A DNA stretch of 48,518 nt from Geminocystis sp. GBBB08 (GTDB taxonomy: Bacteria; Cyanobacteriota; Cyanobacteriia; Cyanobacteriales; Cyanobacteriaceae), in NCBI RefSeq assembly GCF_016743215.1, contig NZ_VRZC01000008.1:1-48518 (forward strand). Reading direction: 5' to 3'. The notes under the pieces are model-generated. The model had not been told where the DNA came from, searched no databases, and worked only from the letters and a program-made list of their open reading frames with translations. Shown here piece after piece: positions 30,141-45,669 of the stretch. The translations under genes were made by a program, and so were the position numbers. Numbering within the stretch: position 1 is the first letter of the stretch; each line of letters opens with the position of its first letter.

Positions 30141-30341
30141 TCACGCAAAGGCGCCAAGACGCAAAGAAGTTCGCAAATTTTTATTATAAGTAATCATCCG
30201 AACTTGATATAACTTAGTACGCAGATGCTGAAAAACACTTTTAAGATAATTGTAATCAGGATGTTCATCCCTTAATAACTTAGCGATCGCCCTAGCTTCT
30301 AGCTTTACGCCGATATGACTAACTAGAAAAAAATTTGCCAT
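30141..30341 (-). pseudogene. Possible fragment of a phage-type integrase/recombinase
   Basis: A 66-residue frame starts MANFFLVSHIGVKLEARAIA and continues LLRDEHPDYNYLKSVFQHLR. This opening resembles the N-terminal helical part of tyrosine-recombinase-like proteins from cyanobacteria, but I am not certain. There is no catalytic domain, and its last third runs into CGCAAAGA-type filler, so it looks truncated. Its first 23 bases overlap the 3' end of the upstream glycosyltransferase gene. It could also be a small hypothetical protein. Confidence 0.35.
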
Positions 30342-31653
30342 ATTTTATCCATAATCGATGTCTAAATGATTTTGGTAAAACTTTCCTACCAATCTCAAAG
30401 CAAGTGCTTATTATAGTTGGTCTTAGATTTGCCATAAATAATCTAAATATATGCGGTTTTCGTCCCTGAGTGCGTCCTACTAAGTCTGGGAGTATTGGTG
30501 GTAAGGAAATTTTTCTGGGAATTTTAATAGGATAAGTAATTGTAGAGCGATCGCTAAGTTCAGAAATGACATTCAGCCAACGTTGGTAACAAATTTCTTC
30601 ACTATAATTCTCAGCTACTAATAATTTAGAAGCATTAGAATATTCTAACCAAGTTTCAGGATGATTGACTAGGTGAACAATAGCTGTGGCTGCTTGTTCA
30701 GGCGTATCATCTACCAATAGTCCAGATTCATTGTGTTTAACCAGTTCAGGAATACCACTGGAAATTGAGCGGACGATAGGAACAACCCCTATCGCCATTG
30801 CCTCAAGTAATGCAATTGGTAAACCTTCGTAATCGGACATTAATAATATCACCTGACATAGAGCCAGCTTGGCTGGAACTTGAGATGATTCTACTCTACC
30901 TAAAAAAATAATGCGATCGGCTAAACCACGATCATTGATAAAATCACGAGATATCGTCATTTCATCGCCATCACCAATTATCCAACATTCAATCCGTGGA
31001 TCAAGGCGACAAGCTTGACACATTACCTCTAAAACTAAAGAAATTCTTTTTTGTTCTTCGACAACTCTCCCACTAAAGACAACTCGAAATGGAGAATCAG
31101 AAAATGAAGCAGTATTTTCAAAAATAGATACTCCGTAGGGAATGGTTATAGGTTGATGAGCTAACTCTTTCTGTACAGCCTTTTTGCTTATGTAATCTGA
31201 TACGCCTATCATCAAACCATTATTGGCTTCTGGTGCAACTGTTTCGGCAAATGCCCAGTAAACTGGATCGTCAGAATGAATGGCCATTGACCAAGGCAAT
31301 CCGTAGGAATCTGCAATACCTGCTGTATGATATGTTGACTCAAGACATTGAGGCAAGAATACTCGGGGTTGATAACGGTTAATAAAAGCTAACATACTGG
31401 ATATATCATCTTCTATATAAGGTGATTGGATAGCAATTTCAACAGATATTCCGGCTTCTCTTAAAATAGGCAACAGAGAGGATTCCTCGACATCTGAACC
31501 ACTATGTATTAAAAATACTACAATTGGGATACTGTCACTATGCATACGTAATAATAATCTTTGCAACCAAGTTGTAACTCCACCAATATCGTCCTTTTTA
31601 CTATAGTGGGCAAATGCAATGAGGGGGGGCTTATGGTAACTTGCAATAGTCAT
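30319..31653 (-). CDS. GT4-type glycosyltransferase (region edge)
   Basis: 444 residues with a GT-B fold. The N-terminal half contains DIGGVTTWLQRLLLRM; the C-terminal half has VVFSGRVVEEQKRISLVLEV, CWIIGDGDE and DYEGLPIALLEAMAIGVVPI with the EX7E nucleotide-sugar-binding pair, then SSGIPELVKHNESGLLVDD. It probably transfers a hexose to a cell-surface glycan at the cytosolic membrane face. Donor and acceptor are unknown. It is divergent from the oxygenase gene, with 84 bases between the starts. Confidence 0.88.
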   Translation of the reverse strand: MTIASYHKPPLIAFAHYSKKDDIGGVTTWLQRLLLRMHSDSIPIVVFLIHSGSDVEESSLLPILREAGISVEIAIQSPYIEDDISSMLAFINRYQPRVFLPQCLESTYHTAGIADSYGLPWSMAIHSDDPVYWAFAETVAPEANNGLMIGVSDYISKKAVQKELAHQPITIPYGVSIFENTASFSDSPFRVVFSGRVVEEQKRISLVLEVMCQACRLDPRIECWIIGDGDEMTISRDFINDRGLADRIIFLGRVESSQVPAKLALCQVILLMSDYEGLPIALLEAMAIGVVPIVRSISSGIPELVKHNESGLLVDDTPEQAATAIVHLVNHPETWLEYSNASKLLVAENYSEEICYQRWLNVISELSDRSTITYPIKIPRKISLPPILPDLVGRTQGRKPHIFRLFMANLRPTIISTCFEIGRKVLPKSFRHRLWIKYGKFFSS

Positions 31654-31737: not shown

Positions 31738-32583
31738 ATGGCTGAATTTATAAATAAAGGCTTATATAATTTTTTGGAACTTTCTCTCGATCAGTTTCCC
31801 CGCCTTGAAAATTTTTTGAAAGATATGCAGCAAGGAAGGCTTGATGGAGTAATCATTTCAGGGATATTCAATCAACAAGAACTAAAAACATTCCAGACTC
31901 AGTTTCAAAAATTTTCAGAACAAATCAAGGGAACTGACCTATTCGCAGAAACAGATTTTGGCTCAGTAATTGGTTCTTCATTGATGGAAAATAATCTAGA
32001 AGCCTATTTAGATAGATCATGTCGTTCATTAGATTTTTTTGAGTCGGTTTTTCAAGGCAATTTTTGTTCCTTTGTCACAGGACTGCTTTCTAAATTAGCT
32101 GGGAAACAAATGATTTTGAAAGCTCGATTTTCAAACACTGATAAGTCTGCTAGTCCAGCTTCAATTAGAATTTGTAAGCCCGAACATCAAGCTTTAAATG
32201 CACATATTCATCGTGAATTCGAGCTGTACTTTCCTTTGTATCAAAAAATTGCTTCCATCAGTCGTTTAGAGACCGAGTTAAGTTACTATCTAATGTTGCA
32301 AAAGCCTAATAGCGGGGGAGCTCTTACATTGTACGATTTACAATGGCACAACACACCCCAAGAATATATCCGTCCAGAACTATTTATGGCTGAACAACGT
32401 AATGACTTTTTGGACAACCTTGATAAAATGCATATAAGGTTATCAGAGGGTGAGATAATTATCTTTGCTGCCAATAGCATATGGCATAAAATTGATGCAG
32501 TTCAGGGGAATACTAACAGGATAACCATTGGTGGTTTTATAACTGAATCCTTCGATTCTCGGTATCAATATTATTGGATATGA
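31738..32583 (+). CDS. Fe(II)/2-oxoglutarate oxygenase-like protein
   Basis: 281 residues. NAHIHREFE near 154-162 supplies a proximal histidine (His156 or His158) with Glu160. GGALTLYDLQWHN at 193-204 is the GGxLxLYDxxW-type strand seen in prolyl-hydroxylase-like oxygenases. SIWHKIDAVQGNTNRITIGG gives distal His250 and Arg261, the likely 2-oxoglutarate contact. A carboxylate Glu rather than Asp in the facial triad is unusual but tolerated in some families. It is the only plus-strand gene in the glycan region and lies between two glycosyltransferases. Substrate unknown. Confidence 0.65.
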   Translation: MAEFINKGLYNFLELSLDQFPRLENFLKDMQQGRLDGVIISGIFNQQELKTFQTQFQKFSEQIKGTDLFAETDFGSVIGSSLMENNLEAYLDRSCRSLDFFESVFQGNFCSFVTGLLSKLAGKQMILKARFSNTDKSASPASIRICKPEHQALNAHIHREFELYFPLYQKIASISRLETELSYYLMLQKPNSGGALTLYDLQWHNTPQEYIRPELFMAEQRNDFLDNLDKMHIRLSEGEIIIFAANSIWHKIDAVQGNTNRITIGGFITESFDSRYQYYWI

Positions 32584-32649: not shown

Positions 32650-33918
32650 CTATCTTTTTGTATGAAAATCATTGATCGTTTGTCTATAAAAGTCAACAAG
32701 TTGATTAATAACTTTTTCTGGTTGTAATTGCTGTGTTCTCTGATATGCTTTTTTGCCTATTTCCAATCTTTTCTCTTCGGTTAAACTCAGCACTTCTTTA
32801 ATTATCCTTAGCAGATCTTGAGAGTTATCTTTTTCGCACAAAAAACCACTTACTCCATGTTCAATTAGTTGTTCAAAACTTGTGCTATTTGTACCAATAA
32901 CAATTCGCTTATGTCCCATCGCTTCTATACAGGTATTTGGAAAATTATCTATTATAGATGGTAAAACCACAGCATAAGCATTAGAAACAATTGGATAAAG
33001 ATAGTCGTGAGTTAATCTATCAAAATGAATTACTCTCTCCTTGTTTTCTACGGCATTTTCTCTGATTTTATCCATCATACTTTTTCCCTGAAATCCCAGA
33101 TAGTCTTTATCCCTACCGACAAAAACAAAGAATAAATTTTTCCTAAAAGTCAACAAGGAATAAATTATTTCTGCAATTAATCCACATCCTTTCATTAATC
33201 CAATTGTTCCAAAAAATAGTAGATACTCTTTACCTTTCAAATTCTTTTCGTAAATACTATTATTTAGTGTTTCAGTCTCAATCATAAAGGGTGATTCGAT
33301 AACTTTAACATCTTTTTTAACAATTTTTTCTATTGTTTTTGCATTGAGTTCGCTAGGACAAAATAGAGCATCTGATAGTTTATTGGCCCAATCTTCTTGC
33401 TTTTCCATTAACCAAACATCTAGTGTTCTTTTTACTTTATAGGCATCATTCCATTGAGGTAAATATCCAGAAATACGAGTTACTTTAGGTATATTGTTCA
33501 GAGGAAACAACCCAAGTGCTGCACAATTTGGATATTGAACAACAGATATGGGATGTTCAATTTGTTTGAGTTTTTCTCTCAATTGCCAACTCATTAAAAC
33601 CTGTATGGTAGAGTGATACATTTTCCCGAAAGTTATCCAATTCCAAAACCTAAATAGCCAATCATTATACTTGTTGGTCTGAAATATTTTTAAATACGTC
33701 CCAGTGTAAACTCTAAATCTATGCACTTCAATGCCTTTATGGATAAATACATCCTCATTTTCGTGAGAAAGGACAAAAACAATCGGTCTATGTCCAAGCT
33801 CTTTCAAACCTAAGCCAACTCTATGAACATAGTTAGATAATCCAGCGTCAAAAAAATCTTCAGTAACATACTCAGTTGTTACTAGAATAATCGTTAAATG
33901 CGATCGTGTCTCTTCCAT
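32650..33918 (-). CDS. GT4-type glycosyltransferase
   Basis: 422 residues from ATG 33918, chosen because GAGG lies just upstream and because it begins EETRSHLTIILVTTEYV directly at the Rossmann fold. The in-frame ATG at 33960 would overlap asnB by 26 bases. The C-terminal half has KEYLLFFGTIGLMKGCGLIA, VVLPSIIDNFPNTCIEAMGH in the EX7E position (N-T-C-I-E-A) and GVSGFLCEKDNSQDLLRII. It lies 16 bases after the asnB stop, suggesting one transcript. Sugar specificity cannot be told. Confidence 0.87.
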   Translation of the reverse strand: MEETRSHLTIILVTTEYVTEDFFDAGLSNYVHRVGLGLKELGHRPIVFVLSHENEDVFIHKGIEVHRFRVYTGTYLKIFQTNKYNDWLFRFWNWITFGKMYHSTIQVLMSWQLREKLKQIEHPISVVQYPNCAALGLFPLNNIPKVTRISGYLPQWNDAYKVKRTLDVWLMEKQEDWANKLSDALFCPSELNAKTIEKIVKKDVKVIESPFMIETETLNNSIYEKNLKGKEYLLFFGTIGLMKGCGLIAEIIYSLLTFRKNLFFVFVGRDKDYLGFQGKSMMDKIRENAVENKERVIHFDRLTHDYLYPIVSNAYAVVLPSIIDNFPNTCIEAMGHKRIVIGTNSTSFEQLIEHGVSGFLCEKDNSQDLLRIIKEVLSLTEEKRLEIGKKAYQRTQQLQPEKVINQLVDFYRQTINDFHTKR

Positions 33919-33934
33919 AACTACCTCATAAATA

Positions 33935-35773
33935 TCAGATATTTTGATTAAGCCATTCATCTAAAACAAGAAGTAACCAAAGGGAATTAGTTTGTTCTTG
34001 TTTAATCATTTTTTGAACTATTTCTGGGCGAAAGTATTGATATAGTTTACACCCAGAATCGAGGAAACGCTCCTCCAATATTTTTCTATAATTGCCTTGA
34101 GCAGACAAACATTTTTCAATGGGAGGACTAAATCCCATCTTCCGACGATGTAAAAAATCATGAGGATAATAACGACTCAGTAATTTTTTAAAAAGTAGCT
34201 TTCCTTCCCAAATTCCTTGATAGTTTCTGCCAATGTTAAAGGACTCAGGAATACTTACCGCAAATTCAAATACCTTGGTATCAACAATTGGTGTTCTTAC
34301 TTCTAGTCCATTCATCATACTCGCTATATCTACTTTTGTCAAAATACAAGAAGGCATATAGGTTTTGATGTCTAAATATTGAGCTTTTTGATTCCAATTA
34401 TAATTACTAACTTTCTTGTATTCTTCTTCAAAAATATTTATCGGTTGATTAACTATAGAATCATATTCCCTCCTCCATAATTCAAGGCGATCGCCAGAGG
34501 ATATTTGAGTGATATGCCTAAACCAAGTTTGTAAATCAGGAATACGATACGGACAGTGATCTCGTTTCCAAAAACGACTAAAAGGATCGGTTATTCTTTC
34601 CCATCTAGGCTTTTCTTCTTGATATTTATGTAACCAATACATCCAATCAAGATAATTATTATAGCCAGCAAACAATTCATCGCCCCCATCACCAGATAAC
34701 ACCATTGTCACTTGTTCGCGTGCCATTTTACTGAGGTAATAGGTTGGGATTGCTGAACTATCTCCAAAGGGTTCGCCATAATGTTTAACTAACTTAGGTA
34801 AAAGATTCTCTATGGACTCTAGTTTAACAGTTTCTGTATGGTGATCTGTTTTCCATCTCTTGGCTGCAATTTCTGCATATCCGGGTTCATTAAAGTCAGC
34901 TTCATCAAAACCAATACTGAAAGTTTTAACTGGTTCTTCGAGCAATTGACTCATATAGGCAACTATTGCGCTTGAATCAACACCCCCTGAGAGAAATGCT
35001 CCGAAGGAAACATCAGATACCAAATGGGTTTTGACTGATTCCTTGAAAACAAAGTCAAATTCTTCTAACCAATGTGCTTCGTTTTTAGTTTTATTAGGCT
35101 TGAAATTCAAATGCCAATATTGTTTGCTTTCAAAAATAGTACCGCCAAAGGTGACACTAATATAATGAGCAGGAAGTAACTTTTTTATCTGTTGGAAAAT
35201 GGTTTTTGGAGCAGGAATATACTTTAACCAAAGATATTGATCAATTGCTTGTAAATCTATATCTAAGTTAATTGAAAGTTGACGTAAAGCTTGAATTTCT
35301 GAAGCGAAGGCAAAAAAAGTATCGGTAAAAATATAGTATAAAGGCTTAATTCCTAACTGATCACGAGCAATAAAAACCTTTTGACGATTCAAGTCAACAA
35401 TGCCAAAAGCAAACATTCCGCGAAATTTTTGGACACAAGAATCTCCCCATTCTTCATAACCATGTACAATTACTTCTGTATCAGAGTTGGTTTTAAATCT
35501 ATGACCTTTACTAATTAATTGCTGTCTTAGTTCTCGATAGTTATAAATTTCTCCATTAAATGTTATCCATATAGTTTCATCTTTATTGCAAAGGGGTTGC
35601 TGTCCTGTCTCTAAATCAATAATAACTAATCGCCGATGACCAATAGCCACTTGTCCATTGATCCAGATCCCATCGCCATCTGGTCCACGATGACTAAGAG
35701 AATTTGTCATTAATTGAATGTCTTGGCGATTAGCTTTTTCTTGGAATTGAAGAATGCCAGTGATACCACACAT
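33935..35773 (-). CDS. asnB: Glutamine-hydrolysing asparagine synthetase-like amidotransferase
   Basis: 612 residues. The N-terminal Ntn hydrolase domain starts MCGITGIL with catalytic Cys2 and has SHRGPDGDG and RLVIIDLETGQQPL. The synthetase domain has the PP-loop SGGVDSS at 262-268 and SGDGGDELFAGYN. Catalysis is ATP- and glutamine-dependent amide formation. In surface-glycan loci, AsnB relatives such as the WbpS type are associated with amidation of sugar acids. Here, placed among glycosyltransferases and exporters, that role is as likely as making free asparagine. It is the standard 600-residue length. Confidence 0.92.
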   Translation of the reverse strand: MCGITGILQFQEKANRQDIQLMTNSLSHRGPDGDGIWINGQVAIGHRRLVIIDLETGQQPLCNKDETIWITFNGEIYNYRELRQQLISKGHRFKTNSDTEVIVHGYEEWGDSCVQKFRGMFAFGIVDLNRQKVFIARDQLGIKPLYYIFTDTFFAFASEIQALRQLSINLDIDLQAIDQYLWLKYIPAPKTIFQQIKKLLPAHYISVTFGGTIFESKQYWHLNFKPNKTKNEAHWLEEFDFVFKESVKTHLVSDVSFGAFLSGGVDSSAIVAYMSQLLEEPVKTFSIGFDEADFNEPGYAEIAAKRWKTDHHTETVKLESIENLLPKLVKHYGEPFGDSSAIPTYYLSKMAREQVTMVLSGDGGDELFAGYNNYLDWMYWLHKYQEEKPRWERITDPFSRFWKRDHCPYRIPDLQTWFRHITQISSGDRLELWRREYDSIVNQPINIFEEEYKKVSNYNWNQKAQYLDIKTYMPSCILTKVDIASMMNGLEVRTPIVDTKVFEFAVSIPESFNIGRNYQGIWEGKLLFKKLLSRYYPHDFLHRRKMGFSPPIEKCLSAQGNYRKILEERFLDSGCKLYQYFRPEIVQKMIKQEQTNSLWLLLVLDEWLNQNI

Positions 35774-35818: not shown

Positions 35819-36670
35819 CTAGATTTTACTTCTAATTTCATCACCATTCTTGAGAAGTTCCGCAAACTCTTCTTCTGTAATCATACGATTTTGATTTTCG
35901 ACAAAACCTTCACTTTTCCATTCAGGTTTGCGACTACCATATAATTCACTGACATGAGTGGTGAGAAAAAATTCACTGTCCGCATGAATCAACTCAAATC
36001 TTTCGTCATTTTCTTTAAAAAAGAAGGTTGGGGTAGCATCACTTGGAATACAGAGTATTTGAATCGCAATGCGAGACTGATCAGAGTCATTTTTTCGAGA
36101 CCAGTGAATGAGTGCATCATCAAAAATGATTGCTTCTCCGGCTTTCATTGGGAATGGTTTGAGATATTTCTCAATAAGAGCTTTTTGGAAGTTGGCAAAA
36201 TAGGGGGGACTATTTGGTGCTTCAATATGGGGCAGAATTTTGTGACTGCCCTCAACAATCTGAATAGCGCCGTTAGACTCAATAACATCCACTAGTGGAC
36301 ACCAAATAGTCACTGTAGTGTCACTAATATCAGCGATCGCTGGCCAGTTTTGATGAATTTGAAACTCTCCTGTATGAGGTGGTTTAACATAAAAATTACA
36401 GTTAAGAATTTCGTATCCTACAAGGTATTCATTTACAAAAGGAGTAAATACCCCTTTAATTAGATTGTAAGTTTGGCATTTATATTCAAGATTTGGATCT
36501 AGAAATGAACAATGGTAAGAGTTTTTCGGAGCAAAGTTGTCGTCTGGACGCAATTTACCTATTTCCTGTAGAAGATACATAACTTGCTTCGAAGACAACA
36601 TAGGAACTTGTGCATAGCCTTTTTTCAAAAAGCTTTTCTGTAAATTATCGTCTTGAAATACTTGTCGCAT
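35819..36670 (-). CDS. Phytanoyl-CoA dioxygenase (PhyH)-family protein with altered metal motif
   Basis: 283 residues. The family pattern is clear: TIWCPLVDVIESNGAIQIV and GSHKILPH, distal His189 in DDALIHWSRKND, and Arg200 in QSRIAIQ for 2-oxoglutarate. The proximal motif expected to be H-x-D reads His106-Gln-Asn108-Trp, so the aspartate ligand is replaced by asparagine (codon AAC). It may therefore bind iron weakly, use another ligand, or be inactive. It lies 45 bases upstream of asnB in the same direction. Confidence 0.8.
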   Translation of the reverse strand: MRQVFQDDNLQKSFLKKGYAQVPMLSSKQVMYLLQEIGKLRPDDNFAPKNSYHCSFLDPNLEYKCQTYNLIKGVFTPFVNEYLVGYEILNCNFYVKPPHTGEFQIHQNWPAIADISDTTVTIWCPLVDVIESNGAIQIVEGSHKILPHIEAPNSPPYFANFQKALIEKYLKPFPMKAGEAIIFDDALIHWSRKNDSDQSRIAIQILCIPSDATPTFFFKENDERFELIHADSEFFLTTHVSELYGSRKPEWKSEGFVENQNRMITEEEFAELLKNGDEIRSKI

Positions 36671-36711: not shown

Positions 36712-37587
36712 TCAATTAGAAACTTTAGTCGCATGAACTATCATATAGTGTCTGACATCATTAATCAAGGTAGGTAAGGAATCTTTCCATTTTTGCCATT
36801 CTTGATATTCTACCTTACCGAGGGAATATTCTGCATCAACCCATGTCTCTAAATTATTGCAAAAACTTTTCCAGCACAAATCTGTGGCATCCTCTAAATA
36901 TCTATTTTCAAACCCTGCTTCAGTAAGGAGTATTTCATAATCTCTGATGTTGTCTATCTGATTACATTGTGGGACTAACCATGATTCTGATAAATTAGTG
37001 GGATTAAATATCATATCAGTAAGTATAAGATTCCCATTAGGTTTCAAAATGCGAGAAGCTTCTAAGATAAAATCTTGACGACTGTTAAAATGAAAAACGG
37101 CTTCGATGCTCATTAACAAATCAAATTGTGAATCTGGAAAGGCTAGTTCTGTCGCATCCATTACTTTGAAAGAACATAAAGGAGCATTCTGGCGACAACG
37201 CTGAATTTGCTTTTCAGAGAAATTTATACCAATTACTTGTGCTTCTATCCACCTATTTTTTGCTTTTTGGGTAGTTGCTCCTAAACCGCAGGCAACATCT
37301 AAAATAGTGCTTGGTTTTTTGATAACAAATGAGAATAATTTGTCCACTAGATTATGGCAAGCAAGATTCTGTGTATGTATGTGTTTCTCCCAATATCCAA
37401 CGTTATAGAATTCACTATCAAAATACTTACGAATTAGTGGATCAAAAATTAACTTATCATAGCTTTGTAAAGATTGATCAGTAGATTTATCCTCCGTTTC
37501 AACAGTAGAAATAGCTGTTGTTGAAGAATATAAAAATTTTTCAATTCTTTTATTTATGCTTGAAAAGATTTGTTTAAGTAAAGGCAT
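36712..37587 (-). CDS. SAM-dependent class I methyltransferase
   Basis: 291 residues. Motif I ILDVACGLGATT at 95-106 and the acidic end of strand 2 define a Rossmann methyltransferase. MDATELAFPDSQFDLLMSIE is the post-II region, and EASRILKPNGNLILTD is the motif-III-like end. Resemblance is closest to small-molecule and sugar O-methyltransferases, but the substrate is unknown. It sits between the PhyH-like and ABC ATPase genes, consistent with tailoring of the exported product. Confidence 0.85.
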   Translation of the reverse strand: MPLLKQIFSSINKRIEKFLYSSTTAISTVETEDKSTDQSLQSYDKLIFDPLIRKYFDSEFYNVGYWEKHIHTQNLACHNLVDKLFSFVIKKPSTILDVACGLGATTQKAKNRWIEAQVIGINFSEKQIQRCRQNAPLCSFKVMDATELAFPDSQFDLLMSIEAVFHFNSRQDFILEASRILKPNGNLILTDMIFNPTNLSESWLVPQCNQIDNIRDYEILLTEAGFENRYLEDATDLCWKSFCNNLETWVDAEYSLGKVEYQEWQKWKDSLPTLINDVRHYMIVHATKVSN

Positions 37588-37675: not shown

Positions 37676-39040
37676 CTAAGAAGAAGTAACGCTCATTTGA
37701 CAATTACCAAGTAAATTACAAATTCCAAAATGCGAATATTCATCACAACTGTAACGAGGAAGAACTTTAAATGCCCCTAGCTTATCATAAATATCACAGA
37801 CCTGTAAGTGACTAATAAATTCATCTTTTGAAACTAAGTCTAAGGAGGCATAATGATCACTGTGCATATTACCAAATGAAATATTAAAAACATAATCGTT
37901 TGGCTCTACACTTAAAGTAATATTGCGACAGAAGCGCAAGCGATCGCCTTGATTAACTCGACTAGGAACATTAACTTTATGCTGAAATGAAATTTTGCTA
38001 TGAATTATTACATTGTATTTATTTGTTATAATTAGACCGACAATTGGCACAGCTATATTTTGCTTAATCTGAAATTCGCAATATATATAGGATTCTTCGC
38101 CTTGCAAAAAATTTAAGGTGGGCTCACCTTTAGAATTACAAATAGCATAGCGGGTTAGTTGGGCATAATTAGCATCGGGAAAATCAACAGGAATGAAAAC
38201 TTCATCACTTGGCCAAGAGAAATCATCTGAAGTATCTGATGATAGTAGAGATGATTTTTGACTGGAAATATCTGTTTCTATGTCCATGTACTTGTTCTGA
38301 ATAAACCCATGCTTAAGCTGATGAAACTGCCAAATACCTTCTTTGGGAGGACCTTGATAGATTTTTTTACCCTGATGTAATAACAATACTTCTTGACAAT
38401 ATTGCTGCACAGCACCTAACTCGTGGGTAACTAAAATAATCGTTGTTTTTTTAGCAATAAGCTCTTCGAGAAGCTTATAACATTTCTGTTTGAAAAAAAT
38501 ATCGCCGACGGCTAAAACCTCATCTAATATTAAGATATCGCTCTCCAAGAAAGCGAAGAGGGAGAAAGCTAGTCTTATTTTCATTCCTGAAGAATATAAT
38601 TTTATCGGTCGATCGAAAAATTCTCCTAACTCAGAAAATTGAGCAATTTGTTCCAATCGTTCCTGAACATAACCCTCTGGAAAGCCTAATAATTCACTAC
38701 TATAAATAGCATTGGCTCTACCACTAAGTTCTGGGTTGAAATCAGTGCCTAATTCCAATAGTGAAAGAACTTTACCATTTAATTCATATTTTCCTTCCGT
38801 TGGTTGCAATACTCCTGTAATAACTTTAAGGAGTGTACTTTTACCTGCACCATTTTCGCCAATAATACCAATAAAATCACCTCGATGCACTTCAAAGGAA
38901 ATATCTTTAATTGACCAATAAGGTTGATGATAGCTACGCTGCCTAACACTCAGCCATTCTCTAGCCCTATGCCAAGGATTGTCATAAATCTTAAAACATT
39001 TGCCTAGGTTTTCTACGCGCAAAATAATGTCATCATTCAT
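37676..39040 (-). CDS. ABC transporter ATPase with Wzt-type C-terminal domain
   Basis: 454 residues. Walker A GENGAGKST is at 61-69, signature LYSSGMKIRL near 148-157, Walker B SDILILDEV near 167-175, and His206 in VTHELGA. Residues about 300-430 form a beta-rich extension (IVGLIITNKYNVIIHSKISF, VEPNDYVFNISFGN), as in Wzt, where it binds the glycan's terminal residue. It pairs with the permease, whose stop overlaps its start by four bases. Together they would export a lipid-linked polysaccharide or teichoic-acid-like glycan. Confidence 0.93.
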   Translation of the reverse strand: MNDDIILRVENLGKCFKIYDNPWHRAREWLSVRQRSYHQPYWSIKDISFEVHRGDFIGIIGENGAGKSTLLKVITGVLQPTEGKYELNGKVLSLLELGTDFNPELSGRANAIYSSELLGFPEGYVQERLEQIAQFSELGEFFDRPIKLYSSGMKIRLAFSLFAFLESDILILDEVLAVGDIFFKQKCYKLLEELIAKKTTIILVTHELGAVQQYCQEVLLLHQGKKIYQGPPKEGIWQFHQLKHGFIQNKYMDIETDISSQKSSLLSSDTSDDFSWPSDEVFIPVDFPDANYAQLTRYAICNSKGEPTLNFLQGEESYIYCEFQIKQNIAVPIVGLIITNKYNVIIHSKISFQHKVNVPSRVNQGDRLRFCRNITLSVEPNDYVFNISFGNMHSDHYASLDLVSKDEFISHLQVCDIYDKLGAFKVLPRYSCDEYSHFGICNLLGNCQMSVTSS

Positions 39041-39852
39041 ATTTTATCTCTAACCTCACTCTGGAGTTTTTCATTTATGGTGGCCCCAAACCATACAAAA
39101 AAAGCAATCCAGCCTATAATTATCAACCAAATATTTAGCTCTGGAATTTTATCTTCCAAAACTAAATCACGAAATGATTTAAGGAAAGCATAAGGAGGAT
39201 TAGCATACAGCCAAGGCAAGAAGCGATCGGGAATGATTGAGGATGGATAATAAATAGGCATTGTCCAAGACCATAGAGGGATAATAAATTGTAAAATTTG
39301 TTTAATGTCAGGAAAGAGGATTTGCAAATTTGCTAAAGCTAAACTCATACCAAAAGACAATCCTTGAAAAAGTAGCCCTATAACGGGTAAAAGCAAAATA
39401 TTCCAGCCTAATCCTTTCCCAAATAGAGGAGTGATCAGTATTATCAAGCCCAAATAAATATAGACAAGAAATAATGAAGCTAATGTAACTTTACCGACAA
39501 AAATTTCTGAAGGTATGGCTAAACGTCTTAAATAGATCGCATTTTTTGAAAAAGCATCACTGCCCTGCACAATAGTTTCAGTAAAACCCCGCCATGGTAA
39601 TAAAGCAATCACAAGATATAACGGATAATAATTACCCTCCATTTTGTTAGGAATCAAAAGTGAAAAAACAACAGTGTAAATGATAATTTCTAATAGGGGA
39701 CTAATCACATTCCAAAATATGCCAATTCCTGTACCAGCATAGCGATAACGCAATTCGTACCAAGCGTTGTAAAACATATACCGCCTGTACTTATAAAAAT
39801 TCATAAAAAGGCTATTTTTTTTATTATTGCTAATATATTTCATTAATCTCAC
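39037..39852 (-). CDS. ABC-2 type polysaccharide exporter permease (Wzm-like)
   Basis: 271 residues with six hydrophobic spans. The cytosolic N-terminal segment FYKYRRYMFYNAWYELRYRY is followed by GTGIGIFWNVISPLLEIIIY, typical of Wzm/TagG permeases; the C-terminal end has YANPPYAFLKSFRDLVLEDK. It forms the membrane channel with the neighbouring ATPase. Start and stop overlap both neighbours by four bases (ATGA type), so the sulfotransferase, permease and ATPase genes are translationally coupled. Confidence 0.92.
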   Translation of the reverse strand: MRLMKYISNNKKNSLFMNFYKYRRYMFYNAWYELRYRYAGTGIGIFWNVISPLLEIIIYTVVFSLLIPNKMEGNYYPLYLVIALLPWRGFTETIVQGSDAFSKNAIYLRRLAIPSEIFVGKVTLASLFLVYIYLGLIILITPLFGKGLGWNILLLPVIGLLFQGLSFGMSLALANLQILFPDIKQILQFIIPLWSWTMPIYYPSSIIPDRFLPWLYANPPYAFLKSFRDLVLEDKIPELNIWLIIIGWIAFFVWFGATINEKLQSEVRDKI

Positions 39853-41087
39853 TCCCAGTTAAATTTCATGCCTAAATATTCTTCTAGCTGCTGATTATAA
39901 GGACGATAAAATTCTTTAAGCTGGGAGCGTAAATTATCAGAAATAGGCGAGTAAGAACCAACGTTGCTATTTCTATAAAAACTAAGTTGATGATGAGGTA
40001 AACCCAAGAAGTCGTAAACTTGTTTCATTGTAGCTGGCGGATTGCTGAATAAATCTTCACTCTTAAGGATGAGAAACTGATCTCTAGGAAAAACAGATAA
40101 CCATTCTTTAAGGTAAAAGACATATAGACCAAAAAAAAGATGATGTAGTGACAAACAAGGATTATACATATAACCATCGATTGAAGTTGATGCTTCAAGT
40201 GGAAATAACAAATCTAACGGGTTATCTACTATCCGGTTTTTGATTGTCTCTATTGCTGTCGGAATCATTAATTTTAGTTCATCATTAATTAATTCTAATT
40301 TTTGATATTTATGTTCGTGATGATAGCTAGAAATTGCACGTTCTATGGGGTTTCTTAATAGAATTATTAATTTTATATTTGGGAAAAAATTAAATACCTT
40401 CTTAGCTATATCAGTAAAATTAATATAACAAGGAGTAGCTTCACCAGTGAGATAGTTTGTTTTTTCAGAAATAGCAGGAAAATGTGCCAGATAGAAATCA
40501 AGACCATGATCAAAAAATTGTGGCGTGAAGAACCAAAGTTCTTTGTCAACAGCAGACAGAATGTGAGGATCTTTAACTAGATAGGAATAAAGTGAACTAG
40601 TGCCACATTTCATAAAACCAGTTATTATAAAGTCTGGCGGACGTTTTTGATTAATGCTCCAACAACTTTCAACCAGTTGAGGATGGGACAAAAATGTTTG
40701 TTTATAGCTGGCAGTCTGGAAGCAATCTATCGCTTCTTGTCTTTTATTTTGCTCAGTTAATAAAATACCTAAAACCACATGAGAAAAATAGAAATCTGGG
40801 TGATTTTCAATCACCTGAAGTAAAATACTGACCCCTTGCTCTAACAGATCGGGATCAATTTTTTCTGACACCCAATGTAGACTTAGGATTGAAAATTTCA
40901 AATTCCAATAATTTTTGGAATCCCTGGGATTAAATTTAATAGCATTTATCAAATCGTATATTTTCTTTTGTGATTCTGATTTACAAACATACGATTGCTC
41001 TACTCGCGTCTGAACAGTCTTATTCTCAGACTTAATCTTCACGGTATTTTTATAATAAGCGATTATCTTTGCTAACAAGTTTGACAT
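39849..41087 (-). CDS. Sulfotransferase with N-terminal TPR-like region
   Basis: 412 residues. The PAPS 5'-phosphosulfate loop GFMKCGTSSL is at 157-166, and the 3'-phosphate motif RNPIERAISSYHHEH at 245-259. Residues about 50-140 look like two or three TPR-like helices (VIENHPDFYFSHVVLGILL, QEAIDCFQTASYKQ). The C-terminal catalytic domain resembles heparan-sulfate-type sulfotransferases and would add sulfate to a carbohydrate hydroxyl. Its stop overlaps the permease start by four bases, tying sulfation to export. Confidence 0.88.
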   Translation of the reverse strand: MSNLLAKIIAYYKNTVKIKSENKTVQTRVEQSYVCKSESQKKIYDLINAIKFNPRDSKNYWNLKFSILSLHWVSEKIDPDLLEQGVSILLQVIENHPDFYFSHVVLGILLTEQNKRQEAIDCFQTASYKQTFLSHPQLVESCWSINQKRPPDFIITGFMKCGTSSLYSYLVKDPHILSAVDKELWFFTPQFFDHGLDFYLAHFPAISEKTNYLTGEATPCYINFTDIAKKVFNFFPNIKLIILLRNPIERAISSYHHEHKYQKLELINDELKLMIPTAIETIKNRIVDNPLDLLFPLEASTSIDGYMYNPCLSLHHLFFGLYVFYLKEWLSVFPRDQFLILKSEDLFSNPPATMKQVYDFLGLPHHQLSFYRNSNVGSYSPISDNLRSQLKEFYRPYNQQLEEYLGMKFNWE

Positions 41088-41390: not shown

Positions 41391-42980
41391 CTATAATAGT
41401 TGCTTGAAAAACTTGCCAAAGTTAGCTAGAACTTTAGAGAAAGAAACGCTTTTAGTTAATGGTTCTGCCGAAATTACGGTGGATTTACTACTTAAATTCC
41501 ACAATCGCCTTTGCCAGTCGGCAACCTCCTCATAGCTAAGGTGAAGCGTGTCAGAAGAAGACATTATTACATTTCCAAAAATAGCTGGATCTTCAAAGCG
41601 CAAAAGATTTTTCTCACGTATCGAATAGTCTTGAGGGGTACCAGGTAAAGGTGCTATGCACATTACTCCACAGCCAAGAATAAGTTTAGGATTGATAGTT
41701 TTTAATTCTTGAAATAGCTCCGATACAGCCTCTTCTAAATACAATAGACTTTCATTATTATCATCTGGAAAACCAATAATTACACCGTAATCAATATTGG
41801 GAACACCAGACCTGACGATCGCTTTCATCATCTCACAGTGGTGATTCCAGGGTAAAAGCTTTTTGTAGGATTCTCGCCCCACGATAGGCCGTTCGGCAGG
41901 AATATAAGCATGAATACATCCAACCTTACCATCCCATCCCCAGACAGCTTCCACAATCTCTTCATCAGGAGTAAGATCGGCATCATATTTATTATTTCCA
42001 CCACCTCGTGTTGCTTTTCTTAACTCTATACCATTGAGCCAGCTAATAGGCATCTCCAATTCTCTCAATCCATTTAGTATGTCCAAAACCTCCTGTTTTC
42101 CCTCAGGAAAAAGCACTCGACCGAGAAATTGATCGGAACCAGAAATAATTGAACGTGCTCCTGCTTCTTTAAGGGCTGCTGCCCACACAAGTGCAGTTTT
42201 AGGCGTCATTCTCTTGTATCCGGTTCCATAGGTCGGCGTTTGACAAAAATCGCAAGTGCGATCGCACCCAATATCAAATAAAATTGAACCAACTGGGGAA
42301 AAATCTTCATTATTAATTGGTACAGTCCAGCAATGATATTGACCAAAGCACTGTTTAATTACTTCCAAAGAGGGAATCGGCCAATCTTCTGGACTTAAAA
42401 CATTGGTGCTTTTTGGATATTTGGTTCCATCGGCTTTAATAACACCGGTCAGTTTTTCTCTGGGTTCTCGTCCTAAGACATGATCAAAAATAGCCCAATT
42501 AGCTGCTCCGGATTTGTCTTGGACAACCGCAGTTGCACCTGCTTCTAAATAAAGACTGGGTACTGCTAAAGCATCAGATCCCCCGACTACAATCGGTGAA
42601 TTTCCCCTAGCAAGATGTGCGATCGCTAGTAGAGCTAACTCACGATATTCTGAAAAATTATTAGTCACGCCCCAAGCATCATAAGAGTTAGGATCGAGAG
42701 TTGATATTTTTGTTCCTACATATCCCTTAGATAGATTCATTCCCCTCCATTCAACTACTCCAAACTCTTCAGAGTCATTTCCAAGTTTCAGATTAACCAG
42801 TTGGGGATCAAAACCTCCAGATTGAAGTTGAGAAAGTAAAATCTGCTTACTAATGAGGGGAAGACCAATCTGACTAATATTCAAGCGGTTGCCAGTCGAG
42901 TCAAGCAACCGAAAATCAGGTAATTCTAACAGTCCTAACATTTCTTTTCTCCTTTGTGAAATTCTTTGACTAGATGACAT
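41391..42980 (-). CDS. Radical SAM protein with B12-domain-like N-terminus
   Basis: 529 residues. The 4Fe-4S motif CDRTCDFC gives C239-x3-C243-x2-C246. The N-terminal ~200 residues resemble a cobalamin-binding Rossmann domain (VVGGSDALAVPSLYLEAGAT), but no DxHxxG is seen, so bound cobalamin is not certain. The SPASM or methyltransferase tails I know are absent. It may modify the product of the adjacent cyclase-like and prenyltransferase genes. It ends 8 bases before the cyclase-like gene starts, in the same operon. Confidence 0.8.
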   Translation of the reverse strand: MSSSQRISQRRKEMLGLLELPDFRLLDSTGNRLNISQIGLPLISKQILLSQLQSGGFDPQLVNLKLGNDSEEFGVVEWRGMNLSKGYVGTKISTLDPNSYDAWGVTNNFSEYRELALLAIAHLARGNSPIVVGGSDALAVPSLYLEAGATAVVQDKSGAANWAIFDHVLGREPREKLTGVIKADGTKYPKSTNVLSPEDWPIPSLEVIKQCFGQYHCWTVPINNEDFSPVGSILFDIGCDRTCDFCQTPTYGTGYKRMTPKTALVWAAALKEAGARSIISGSDQFLGRVLFPEGKQEVLDILNGLRELEMPISWLNGIELRKATRGGGNNKYDADLTPDEEIVEAVWGWDGKVGCIHAYIPAERPIVGRESYKKLLPWNHHCEMMKAIVRSGVPNIDYGVIIGFPDDNNESLLYLEEAVSELFQELKTINPKLILGCGVMCIAPLPGTPQDYSIREKNLLRFEDPAIFGNVIMSSSDTLHLSYEEVADWQRRLWNLSSKSTVISAEPLTKSVSFSKVLANFGKFFKQLL

Positions 42981-42988
42981 ATCTTTAG

Positions 42989-44047
42989 CTAAATTTGAAT
43001 CTTCTGTGACAGAAAATATCTAGTTAAAGCCTCTATCGCAAAAGCAGTGCTTAAGGCTGCTGATCCAAAGATTGCTTTATAGTATCCTCCATAGAAAGGG
43101 ATAAACTGCCACGAACCATCTACTTGCTGAGTTTTTAATAAATAGTCAACTGCTGTATCTAAACGTGGAGATTGGTAGTTAAAATTTAGCAATGTAGATA
43201 TTGCTAAACCAGTCAGTAATTCATCACCAAAAGAGCCGTCGGATTTTTGTAAATTCAAAACTTTATTAACCAAAGAAACTTTTACAAATCTTAAGGATGT
43301 TACGCCATTGAAATATGCTCTTGAAAGCATATAGTAGAAGCCTAGCTTGTGATTGTAAAAGGAGATATCTTTATCCTCGGTATCGTTAATAACAATACCC
43401 GTCAGATAAGTAATTAACTTCTGAGTTTGTGGAATTTCGCCAAGATATAAGGCGACATTGGCATTAACGGCACAACAAATATCGTCTTTATTTGTTAAGT
43501 TCCAGATTTTATCGACATGAGCAAAAGATTTACCCCATGTTAAAATTGATGAAATTAGTCTTCTCGGAGAGTTGTTGAGTAGCCATGTATAGAATAAGCC
43601 TCGATCATTTCTATTTTCAAGAATTATTTTAGTGTTATTTGGAAACGCAATGTTGTTCATTTTTACAACATAGGAGATGCAACAGATGTCATCTAGATCT
43701 GGTGGGATGGTCATGTGTAATTTATTCTTCGATGACCAATATCGCCATAAACCACCTTTTTCCATTTGACTTAAAAGAAAACTCAGCCCCTTATTTATTA
43801 AATCTTTTACTTTATCTTCATGTCTTAAAAAACTTAATGAATACAAAATTAATGAAGTGACAAATGGGGAGCTATCAAAAACTAGATTTTCGGTTAGCTC
43901 ATCATTAATGCCAAAATTTTGATAAGTTAGCTTCAACATTTCTTTAGGCAAGACAGTTGGAAATTCACCATCATCCAGTTGGTTTTGTTCTAAGAAATTT
44001 ATAGCTTTGGATATACTAATTTCTAATTCAGTTGGTGGTGATTGCAT
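42989..44047 (-). CDS. Terpene-cyclase-like alpha-barrel protein (DxDD and QW motifs)
   Basis: 352 residues of (alpha/alpha)-barrel repeats. QW-like motifs are QNQLDDGEF (21-29), LQKSDGSF (266-273) and TQQVDGSW (306-313). A DxDD sequence, Asp117-Leu-Asp119-Asp120 in TIPPDLDDICCISYVV, matches the protonating motif of class II terpene and squalene cyclases. It is much shorter than squalene-hopene cyclase (about 630), so it may be a single-barrel form. It lies 60 bases after the UbiA-family gene and 8 before the radical SAM gene. Other possibilities are a prenyltransferase beta-subunit relative without cyclase activity. Confidence 0.75.
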   Translation of the reverse strand: MQSPPTELEISISKAINFLEQNQLDDGEFPTVLPKEMLKLTYQNFGINDELTENLVFDSSPFVTSLILYSLSFLRHEDKVKDLINKGLSFLLSQMEKGGLWRYWSSKNKLHMTIPPDLDDICCISYVVKMNNIAFPNNTKIILENRNDRGLFYTWLLNNSPRRLISSILTWGKSFAHVDKIWNLTNKDDICCAVNANVALYLGEIPQTQKLITYLTGIVINDTEDKDISFYNHKLGFYYMLSRAYFNGVTSLRFVKVSLVNKVLNLQKSDGSFGDELLTGLAISTLLNFNYQSPRLDTAVDYLLKTQQVDGSWQFIPFYGGYYKAIFGSAALSTAFAIEALTRYFLSQKIQI

Positions 44048-44107
44048 AAATGATTCTCTATCTATAGTTTGTAATTCATTGCTCGTATTTGTAGTTAGGG
44101 GATAATT

Positions 44108-45205
44108 TCACCTCCAGAAATTTTTGTTTCTTTGAATATAACTTATGGCGGAAACAAAAATTGGACTTAACGAACTCCATCTACCGATTATTCCGGGATA
44201 AAACAACAGTATATGTAGTGCTAACAAGACAACAAAGGTAGGTTCTTGTAATGACAAAAAACACAGTAAAGATAAAGGCAACCATGCTTCATATAAATCG
44301 TGAGGAAATATATAATAACCTTCAAGATAAGTTAAATTGATTGTATTAAAAAACCACCATTTAAAGTTGATAATACTCAAAATTGCATAAAAGATAAAGA
44401 AAACTATCAGCAAAGGTTGAAATTGAGAAATAATGCTTAACATTGCCACCAGAAAAATGATTTCGGCAGGTAAGACGAAGCGAGTAACCCAGAGTCTAAT
44501 TTGATTAACCCCCGCTAATTCCAAATTTGTTATTAATGTTTTAACCCCAGATTTTAAATCGTTTTCTTGATCTGAAATTTGATGGGATATAATTCCCCGA
44601 ATCCCCATCAAAAAGAAGCAAGCGCTTGATACAACAGCGAAGATATTACTTTCTAGTCTAGTAGTATCGTTTAGGTGTGAAAATATAGTAGCCACTAATA
44701 GAGTTGGTACTAGATGTACAGAGAAAGAATCGCTAAATACACCCCAAGCAGCCCTTTCTTTAAGTCTTAAAGGCGGTACAGCATAAATGGTTAAGGATAG
44801 ATATAAAGTAGTAAGTAAAAATACTGAAAATGGCATAAATCCAATCCATATCCAAGGAATTATCCCAGCAGTTGCCAATCCTATGATTAGGAAAGTACGT
44901 TTTAATTTAGAGAGGTAAGCTATTCTATTGGGCTTGTTTGCTCGTAGATCAGATTCTATGTCAAAAGTATCATTAACTACATGTCCATAAGCAGCCACAA
45001 AGAACATAGAAGTTATAAGGGGAATAACTGTAGTAATTGATTTTTGTGGCGATATTCCTTCCAGTAAAATTTCAGCATACCCAACAGCAAGTAATTTTGG
45101 AGTTTGGCATAACCACCAATCACTACCACGAAATAAATTAAAAACAGATAGCAATTTTTCTTTGATAAAAGTTAATTTATTAGTTTTTATCTGTGAATAA
45201 ATCAT
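44108..45205 (-). CDS. UbiA-family integral-membrane prenyltransferase
   Basis: 365 residues with about eight to nine hydrophobic spans. Both aspartate-rich prenyl-diphosphate motifs are present: NDTFDIESD (NDxxDxxxD type, near residue 78-86) and DQENDLKSG (DxxxD type). It should attach a polyprenyl chain to a small aromatic or other acceptor in the membrane. It is first of three tightly spaced genes with the cyclase-like and radical SAM proteins. ChlG, UbiA/plastoquinone and heme prenyltransferases are housekeeping relatives; the length and context argue for a dedicated enzyme. Confidence 0.88.
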   Translation of the reverse strand: MIYSQIKTNKLTFIKEKLLSVFNLFRGSDWWLCQTPKLLAVGYAEILLEGISPQKSITTVIPLITSMFFVAAYGHVVNDTFDIESDLRANKPNRIAYLSKLKRTFLIIGLATAGIIPWIWIGFMPFSVFLLTTLYLSLTIYAVPPLRLKERAAWGVFSDSFSVHLVPTLLVATIFSHLNDTTRLESNIFAVVSSACFFLMGIRGIISHQISDQENDLKSGVKTLITNLELAGVNQIRLWVTRFVLPAEIIFLVAMLSIISQFQPLLIVFFIFYAILSIINFKWWFFNTINLTYLEGYYIFPHDLYEAWLPLSLLCFLSLQEPTFVVLLALHILLFYPGIIGRWSSLSPIFVSAISYIQRNKNFWR

Positions 45206-45351: not shown

Positions 45352-45669
45352 TTAAGTGTTTTCACATAATTTAATTAAACGCTCTGCTAAATCTTTTTCA
45401 GGATGGGGTGAAATAAAATTTCTGGCGGCAATGGAAGCCATTTTTCCCATATATGCCCACTCATAACGACGTTGCCATGCTCTTTCTAAGGCAGAGTCAA
45501 CCGCTTCGATGGAACTCCTTGGGCAATAAAACCCGTAATCTCATCTTCTAAAAGTTCAGGAATCCCTCCGACGGAAGTTGCGATCGCAACTCTACCACAC
45601 ATCATTGCTTCCACAAGTGCTAAAGGGCTTGATTCAATATTTTTCTTTTTAAAAGAACCACACCCAAAT
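45352..45669 (-). pseudogene. C-terminal relic of a GT4 glycosyltransferase with a frameshift
   Basis: On the minus strand the frame reads ESSPLALVEAMMCGRVAIAT, SVGGIPELLEDEITGF, then shifts frame near 45520-45530 and continues RSSIEAVDSALERAWQRRYE, WAYMGKMASIAARNF and SPHPEKDLAERLIKLCEN to a stop at 45352. These are the EX7E region and C-terminus of a GT4 enzyme. Only about 100 codons remain, with no N-terminal domain and one frameshift. It is probably the residue of a former glycan gene at the edge of the biosynthetic region. Confidence 0.85.

Follow-up and report, generated by a model that had tools for sequence, protein, structure and literature searches.

In a 48,518-nucleotide contig of the cyanobacterium Geminocystis sp. 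GBBB08 (NZ_VRZC01000008.1, the whole of which is called the window here), a gene for a UbiA-family prenyltransferase lies next to one for a 352-residue protein with a DxDD motif, whose sequence and structural model speak most for a class II terpene cyclase (TC) with a single barrel. We consider it probable, with some reserve, that the two enzymes carry out two steps of one pathway to the cyclic prenyl group of an exported sulfated glycoside or glycan. This reading is built on the fold of the TC model, the conservation of the catalytic residues and the linkage of both genes across phyla. The original prediction had placed both genes in one operon with a third, for a radical S-adenosylmethionine (SAM) protein, describing three packed minus-strand genes with gaps of 60 and 8 bases. 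The coordinates of the open reading frames (ORFs) agree, with the wider gap between the UbiA and TC genes and the narrower between the TC and radical SAM genes.

44108..45205, minus strand: UbiA-family prenyltransferase, 365 residues (PF01040, 50.6 bits; motifs NDTFDIESD and DQENDLKSG; member of a group from glycan-export loci)
42989..44047, minus strand: predicted monodomain class II terpene cyclase, TC-beta type, 352 residues (profile match to AsDMS and AstC, model fold; candidate residues D117, D119 and Y231; G328-S329)
41391..42980, minus strand: radical SAM protein, 529 residues (C239-C243-C246; 8 bases downstream of the TC gene; read as a local arrival outside the conserved unit)

The UbiA gene is fused to the TC gene, adjacent to it or one gene away in 17 of the 23 TC loci that we found, and the pair occurs in Cyanobacteria, Verrucomicrobia, Patescibacteria and Pseudomonadota. 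Six fusions have the order UbiA-TC (Phorm 6, Nostoc NMS8, N. punctiforme NIES-2108, Spirulina CS-785/01, ESFC-1 and a plasmid of Nostoc C052) and encode proteins of ∼1220-1560 residues, PhyH domain included; two have the order TC-UbiA (G495 and a broken G646 gene, which is split and was treated as two pieces). The genes are adjacent or one gene apart in the Verrucomicrobia HKST-UBA29 and G759, the Patescibacteria RA.bin9 and G875, and Novosphingobium RL4. The Geminocystis genome itself holds a second locus on contig C300, where UbiA lies between two TC paralogs beside an ATP-binding cassette (ABC) pair and a sulfotransferase, and the sister species G391 has counterparts of both loci. Since genomes carry one to eight UbiA genes, we estimate that chance closeness to a TC gene would arise at well under 1% per locus. 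The TC family is rare, being present in 3 of 386 genomes by single-sequence search and, by profile, in 3 of 15, 11 of 388, 2 of 141, 5 of 188 and 1 of 62 genomes in samples that overlap partly. A single-sequence scan of genome contigs found no relative, and an alignment-based scan found seven loci. What is conserved of the proposed trio is thus the UbiA/TC pair, to which the radical SAM gene does not belong.

The assignment of the 352-residue protein draws on motifs, profiles and a model. The DLDD at residues 117-120 and the three QW-like motifs to which attention had been drawn are seen in the sequence, where by eye the QW-like stretches have their ends at about residues 101, 273 and 313, and a fourth stretch lies near 29. 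The protein is indeed about half the usual size of a cyclase, yet one-barrel cyclases are already known (MstE and the TC domains of AsDMS and AstC). In Pfam, SQHop_cyclase_C falls below its cut-off (21.1 vs 26.1 bits), and Pec_lyase exceeds its own (28.4 vs 22 bits) but over 30 residues only. When a profile of ten aligned TC rows was searched against PDB sequences, AsDMS came first (5.6e-15); other matches included squalene-hopene cyclase (SHC; 5.5e-12, a sum over stretches of which none is significant singly) and AstC (4.7e-8), and MstE matched weakly (best E 0.015). The AsDMS alignment has a strong C-terminal stretch (3.4e-10), and in its N-terminal stretch it places PPDLDD on the catalytic DLDTT of this solved enzyme, so the class II signature proposed for DLDD is borne out within a weak stretch (independent E-value 0.17). 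A PDB search with the Patescibacterial relative alone gave only weak matches (best 0.07).

An AlphaFold2 model of the TC built from eight sequences reached a mean predicted local distance difference test (pLDDT) of 83 and a predicted template modelling score of 0.86. The best fold match was again AsDMS (Z 30.8 over 285 residues, root-mean-square deviation 2.8), with SsDMS, SHC and MstE at Z 28-29 (28.9 for both SHC and MstE) and sugar-active barrels at Z 20.9 and lower; a BFVD search with the same model returned no match at E ≤ 0.001. The barrel alignment covers residues 5-345 of 352, and the N-terminal HAD domain of the HAD-TC drimenol synthases is absent. D331, D333 and Y427 are essential in AsDMS (PMC12365925), as are D271, D273 and Y361 in AstC (PMC13244436). 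Each of the 20 aligned TC rows has the corresponding D117, D119 and Y231, with Y231 falling on AsDMS Y427 in our reading of the profile alignment; G328-S329 is likewise invariant (20/20), and D120 is kept in 16. These rows comprise the window protein and 19 others, without the broken or remnant G646, G145 and G406 copies and two plasmid copies, and they are non-independent, as paralogs and the sister species are included. The second TC paralog of the C300 locus (L014 1073-2119) has DIDT, like the DxDT of AstC and AsDMS, and not DxDD.

Both aspartate-rich motifs claimed for the UbiA protein are present and intact, and they align with those of the housekeeping UbiA proteins of the same genome. 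The protein fits the superfamily pattern NDxxDxxxD and DxxxDxxxG, its PPLRLK loop is intact, and HQ precedes motif II in 13 of the 15 locus UbiA rows. In a six-frame search of the genome the gene exceeds the PF01040 cut-off (50.6 vs 34.2 bits), and an hmmscan of the protein against Pfam at E ≤ 1 does not list the UbiA family. A place among housekeeping enzymes such as ChlG, which had been considered for it, is not what we found. Its best NCBIfam match scores 37 bits against a cut-off of 269, ChlG gives 21.5 against 313, and the 4-hydroxybenzoate prenyltransferase family gives no match at E ≤ 1. Four of the six UbiA genes in the genome, which served as controls, exceed the curated cut-offs for heme O synthase, 4-hydroxybenzoate prenyltransferase, ChlG and MenA, and neither of the locus UbiA genes exceeds any of these. 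A tree of 26 rows places 18 locus proteins from Cyanobacteria and Verrucomicrobia in a single group, separate from the housekeeping rows; it did not include the Mst UbiA, UbiA-type terpene cyclases of known function, or the UbiA proteins of Novosphingobium and Methylomagnum. The best PDB sequence match is to digeranylgeranylglyceryl phosphate synthase (5.3e-5, 74 residues), a weak hint that the acceptor may be a sugar or glycerol hydroxyl.

The neighborhood was described in the original prediction as a sulfating glycan exporter, and an ABC2-type permease, a Wzt_C ATPase, a sulfotransferase and two group-1 glycosyltransferases were identified there. The remaining genes of the locus are as follows.

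39849..41087, minus strand: sulfotransferase with an N-terminal extension (PF00685, 71 bits)
39037..39852, minus strand: Wzm-like ABC permease (PF01061)
37676..39040, minus strand: Wzt-like ABC ATPase with a Wzt_C domain (Pfam)
36712..37587, minus strand: SAM-dependent methyltransferase (Pfam)
35819..36670, minus strand: PhyH-family oxygenase (Pfam; in other cyanobacteria its relatives form fusions with UbiA-TC)
33935..35773, minus strand: glutamine-hydrolysing asparagine synthase, AsnB type (Pfam; asnB is also beside UbiA in Methylomagnum)
32650..33960, minus strand: group-1 glycosyltransferase (Pfam)
31738..32583, plus strand: WelO5-like non-haem iron oxygenase (Pfam; possible pathway member; the only plus-strand gene listed)
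30319..31653, minus strand: group-1 glycosyltransferase (Pfam)

Among 12 cyanobacterial pair loci, a sulfotransferase is present in 11 (all except G391 locus a), PhyH in 10 (all except C300 and G495) and an ABC exporter pair in 8 (missing from Phorm 6, NMS8, CS-785/01 and G495, with stretches of only 15 and 17 kb for Phorm 6 and NMS8). These counts come from BLAST to the window and C300 proteins, with some labels confirmed by Pfam. The C300 locus was counted as an ABC pair by BLAST likeness of its permease (27% to the G646 permease), a protein with no Pfam family at E ≤ 0.01, and by the ABC_tran domain of its ATPase, in which no Wzt_C was found. Permeases 64-65% identical to the Wzm-like permease of the window accompany the pair in NIES-2108, G646 and Nostoc C052. 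In Novosphingobium RL4 a Wzt-like ATPase, TC, sulfotransferase and UbiA are side by side, UbiA on the opposite strand. A plasmid of the methanotroph Methylomagnum (L108) carries a related UbiA with a polyprenyl synthetase, AsnB, an ABC exporter, PhyH, a methyltransferase, and a sulfotransferase that belongs to a different Pfam family; no TC was found in that locus at E ≤ 1.

Two further observations concern the window itself. The WelO5-like oxygenase matches PF22814 (E 8e-48), has His-Ile-His where a solved WelO5-type enzyme carries His-Val-Gly, so that it may differ both from usual halogenases and from usual hydroxylases, and is shared by the sister species (82%). At ∼45360-45600 on the minus strand we noted by eye a frameshifted C-terminal remnant of a glycosyltransferase, of which the sister species holds an intact version immediately upstream of UbiA (L058 12884-14134).

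In the pathway that we favor, the membrane-bound UbiA protein would most likely use a polyprenyl diphosphate to prenylate an acceptor, at either a hydroxyl or a ring, and the one-barrel TC, positioned next to UbiA (through fusion, in a number of relatives), would fold the chain into rings after protonation. Here D119 would protonate the distal double bond, with Y231 polarising D119 and D117 serving as base or helper. PhyH oxygenases would add hydroxyls open to sulfation and glycosylation, and the glycosyltransferases, the sulfotransferase and the Wzm/Wzt transporter would build and export the terpenoid-bearing glycoside or glycan. We infer the activities, the acceptor, the chain length, the order of the steps, the export of the product and any part played by the radical SAM protein. 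Prenylation before cyclization is favored because two essential pyrophosphate tyrosines of AsDMS fall on W155 and F230 of the TC, and because the benzoate on which MstE acts is prenylated before it is cyclised (PMC9401909).

The argument about order is a weak one, since in AstC, which binds farnesyl diphosphate (FPP), Phe occupies one of these two tyrosine positions, and a number of other observations also weigh against the pathway as proposed. Within the TC, the DLDD-bearing stretch of the AsDMS alignment is weak taken alone, and the model block that holds DLDD (residues 111-120) has a middling pLDDT of 72; for a natural UbiA-TC fusion AlphaFold2 gave no usable model (pLDDT 52). Support for the UbiA group is only moderate (88/88) and long branches were flagged, the two Patescibacterial UbiA proteins have an uncertain place in the tree and do not join the group firmly, and that of G875 does not reach the Pfam cut-off (26.7 vs 34.2 bits). 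Six of the 23 TC loci have no recognised UbiA in the stretch read (remnants in G145 and G406, and G419, G936, G837 and G831), and G338 (two copies), G213, G051, Oscillatoria and Methylomagnum have related UbiA genes but no recognised TC, so either gene can do without the other. No Wzm/Wzt-like genes were found in the stretches read of the Verrucomicrobial and Patescibacterial pair loci, and inspection of the window ORFs by eye, with no profile search, recognised no genes for a prenyl synthase, the methylerythritol phosphate (MEP) pathway or aromatic precursors.

The reverse order appears to us clearly the less likely one. The TC would then act on a free prenyl diphosphate, in the manner of drimenyl- or labdadienyl-diphosphate synthesis, before UbiA, which would either pass the cyclic group on to an acceptor or work as a UbiA-type terpene cyclase and ionise it to a terpene, taking over the diphosphate and with it the role of the HAD domain in AsDMS and AstC. 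The closest solved relatives, AsDMS and AstC, both use FPP, the partner domain that caps AstC has been proposed to be placed for hand-over of the diphosphate (PMC13244436), a likely UbiA cyclase is reported for 14% of 342 type II diterpene synthase clusters (PMC9814783), UbiA-superfamily terpene cyclases exist (PMC11610947), and the invariance of G328-S329 fits as well. In our reading of the profile alignment, however, the AsDMS pyrophosphate residues Y373, Y426 and R378 are replaced by W155, F230 and a variable K187, and motif I of UbiA looks canonical, in a comparison that contained no characterised UbiA-type cyclase. It is improbable, in our view, that the toroid protein is non-catalytic or a sugar-active alpha/alpha barrel and that the product of UbiA is just a linear prenyl lipid serving as carrier of the glycan. 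UbiA relatives in such loci without the toroid, the match of GH105 and related barrels to the TC model (Z ∼20-21) and the likeness of UbiA to digeranylgeranylglyceryl phosphate synthase, an O-prenylating enzyme, would all suit a linear carrier, but AsDMS, SsDMS, SHC and MstE exceed the sugar enzymes by seven to ten Z units, and the acid, base and Tyr set is invariant in all 20 TC rows.

A larger alternative keeps the third gene. Its cysteines C239, C243 and C246 do form the predicted CxxxCxxC motif, while the B12-domain-like start claimed for it found no support in Pfam. No B12 Pfam family matches at E ≤ 1, and the matches to HpnR (15.8 bits, cut-off 650) and TIGR04013 (15.3 bits, cut-off 251) are weak; a B12-dependent HpnR-type enzyme is thus not supported. 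Pfam Radical_SAM remains below its cut-off (23.8 vs 29.5 bits), and a PDB search gave no match at E ≤ 0.01. Relatives occur in 22 of 386 genomes, its own included, and of the 23 matches that lie in genomes other than that of the window, the neighborhoods of 15 were read. By BLAST none of the 15 holds UbiA or TC; 6 have EgtB-like genes, 5 have EgtD-like genes and 4 have a transporter protein of the OpuAC type, these families being named by Pfam from one locus (L035). Repeated neighbors of the family (L028-L042) are thus genes of the EgtB/EgtD-like, DUF427 and glycine-betaine-type transporter kinds. The gene is absent from 4 of 4 congeners, with its own genome as positive control; it was not found in seven TC-holding genomes, in a search without such a control, or in the other TC loci at E ≤ 1e-3 (the two plasmid loci only at E ≤ 1e-30). 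The trio as a conserved unit was therefore rejected, the window alone among TC loci having the radical SAM gene. In the sister species PhyH occupies its site, and two fusions (L046 and L047) likewise carry PhyH after TC, so by these sequence comparisons the radical SAM gene is probably the newcomer at this locus. It may have been recruited into the pathway all the same. That all three proteins form one pathway in the window strain, with the radical SAM protein modifying (e.g., methylating) the cyclic product instead of PhyH, strikes us as rather unlikely. The 8-base gap, the shared strand and its position at the PhyH site argue for such a role, as do other, dissimilar genes with CxxxCxxC, in the C300 locus (no Pfam family) and two genes from the Methylomagnum UbiA (Radical_SAM). 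Its absence from the congeners, its not being found with other TC genes and the company kept by its relatives speak against it.

Several known systems resemble the proposed UbiA/TC pathway in part. Scytonema makes merosterols with a UbiA-like enzyme and an SHC-like cyclase (PMC5618424), and this cyanobacterial system likewise has a UbiA-like enzyme and a one-barrel class II cyclase acting on one molecule (PMC5618424, PMC9401909). The TC model matches MstE well in fold, whereas the sequence match is weak. The merosterol and putative tolypodiol clusters involve MEP-pathway and aromatic-precursor genes, of which none was recognised by eye in the window; the window UbiA also lacks the 4-hydroxybenzoate family match, and its context is glycan sulfation and export. 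Among the HAD-TC drimenol and drimenyl synthases (AsDMS, AstC and AacA), AsDMS is the best match of the TC in both sequence and fold, and the acid motif position and Tyr are the same, but the fusion there is to a phosphatase-like domain and not to UbiA (and PhyH) as in relatives of the window TC, and the pyrophosphate-binding tyrosines of AsDMS are not kept. SHC shares the DxDD acid motif, QW-like repeats and barrel, whereas the window TC has no second (gamma) domain and is about half the size, and squalene is not implied. UbiA shares its Asp-rich motifs with digeranylgeranylglyceryl phosphate synthase and ChlG, and its loop resembles the PPLxLK loop of ChlG, yet it scores far below the curated cut-offs. 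Loci for ABC-dependent glycan export of the Wzm/Wzt type have the same permease, Wzt_C ATPase, glycosyltransferases and methyltransferase, to which the window adds UbiA, a terpene cyclase and PhyH; we know of no such locus with a terpenoid module.

Other loci of the two families have features of their own. A Verrucomicrobial locus (L048 483-6862) encodes a glycosyltransferase, a TC and a cytochrome P450 in a single chain, with the TC in the middle, adjoining a UbiA fused to an acyltransferase-like domain; a neighboring sulfotransferase-like protein is just below the cut-off (21.5 vs 22). The TC relative of G419 (L099 9471-10484), which has no UbiA, is near Nif11, YcaO and ThcOx genes, and the TC remnant of G406 (L100 9870-10172) is in a place that by eye resembles it. 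A terpene-cyclase-like step within a cluster for ribosomally synthesized and post-translationally modified peptides, as around L099, would be unusual. The Patescibacterial TC relatives (L049 and L102-L105) belong to genomes of ∼0.6-1 Mb, and those of L049, L102 and L103 have by eye a membrane-anchor-like N-terminal stretch. In G338 (L067 15937-20001), acyl-CoA dehydrogenase and Trp-halogenase-like genes and, by eye, a carrier-protein-like gene lie near a methyltransferase-UbiA fusion, which suggests a wider natural-product cluster.

The combination of UbiA with a monodomain class II cyclase is a known principle from the cyanobacterial merosterols. In the open-licence literature we found no report of UbiA-TC fusions or of terpenoid modules in Wzm/Wzt loci, and as far as these searches show, neither this separate group of UbiA proteins nor its fusions with TC in either order nor the sulfated-glycan export setting has been described there. 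To our knowledge, terpenoid parts of exported bacterial glycans are hardly known, the undecaprenyl carrier aside. The pair and its context point to an undescribed ring-bearing lipid part of sulfated sugars. Natural fusions of UbiA and a class II cyclase in both orders offer a direct handle on this chemistry, as the product of one such protein would reveal what the UbiA group prenylates, and the related UbiA with a polyprenyl synthetase on a methanotroph plasmid suggests that the chemistry may reach beyond cyanobacteria. We raise, as a tentative extension, the notion that a covalently coupled PhyH-UbiA-TC enzyme, a single chain in several cyanobacteria, could furnish a sulfated glycan with an oxidised cyclic terpenoid that serves it as a lipid anchor, a primer or a cap, which would be a new glycan modification, read and exported by Wzm/Wzt transporters, across Cyanobacteria, Verrucomicrobia and Pseudomonadota.

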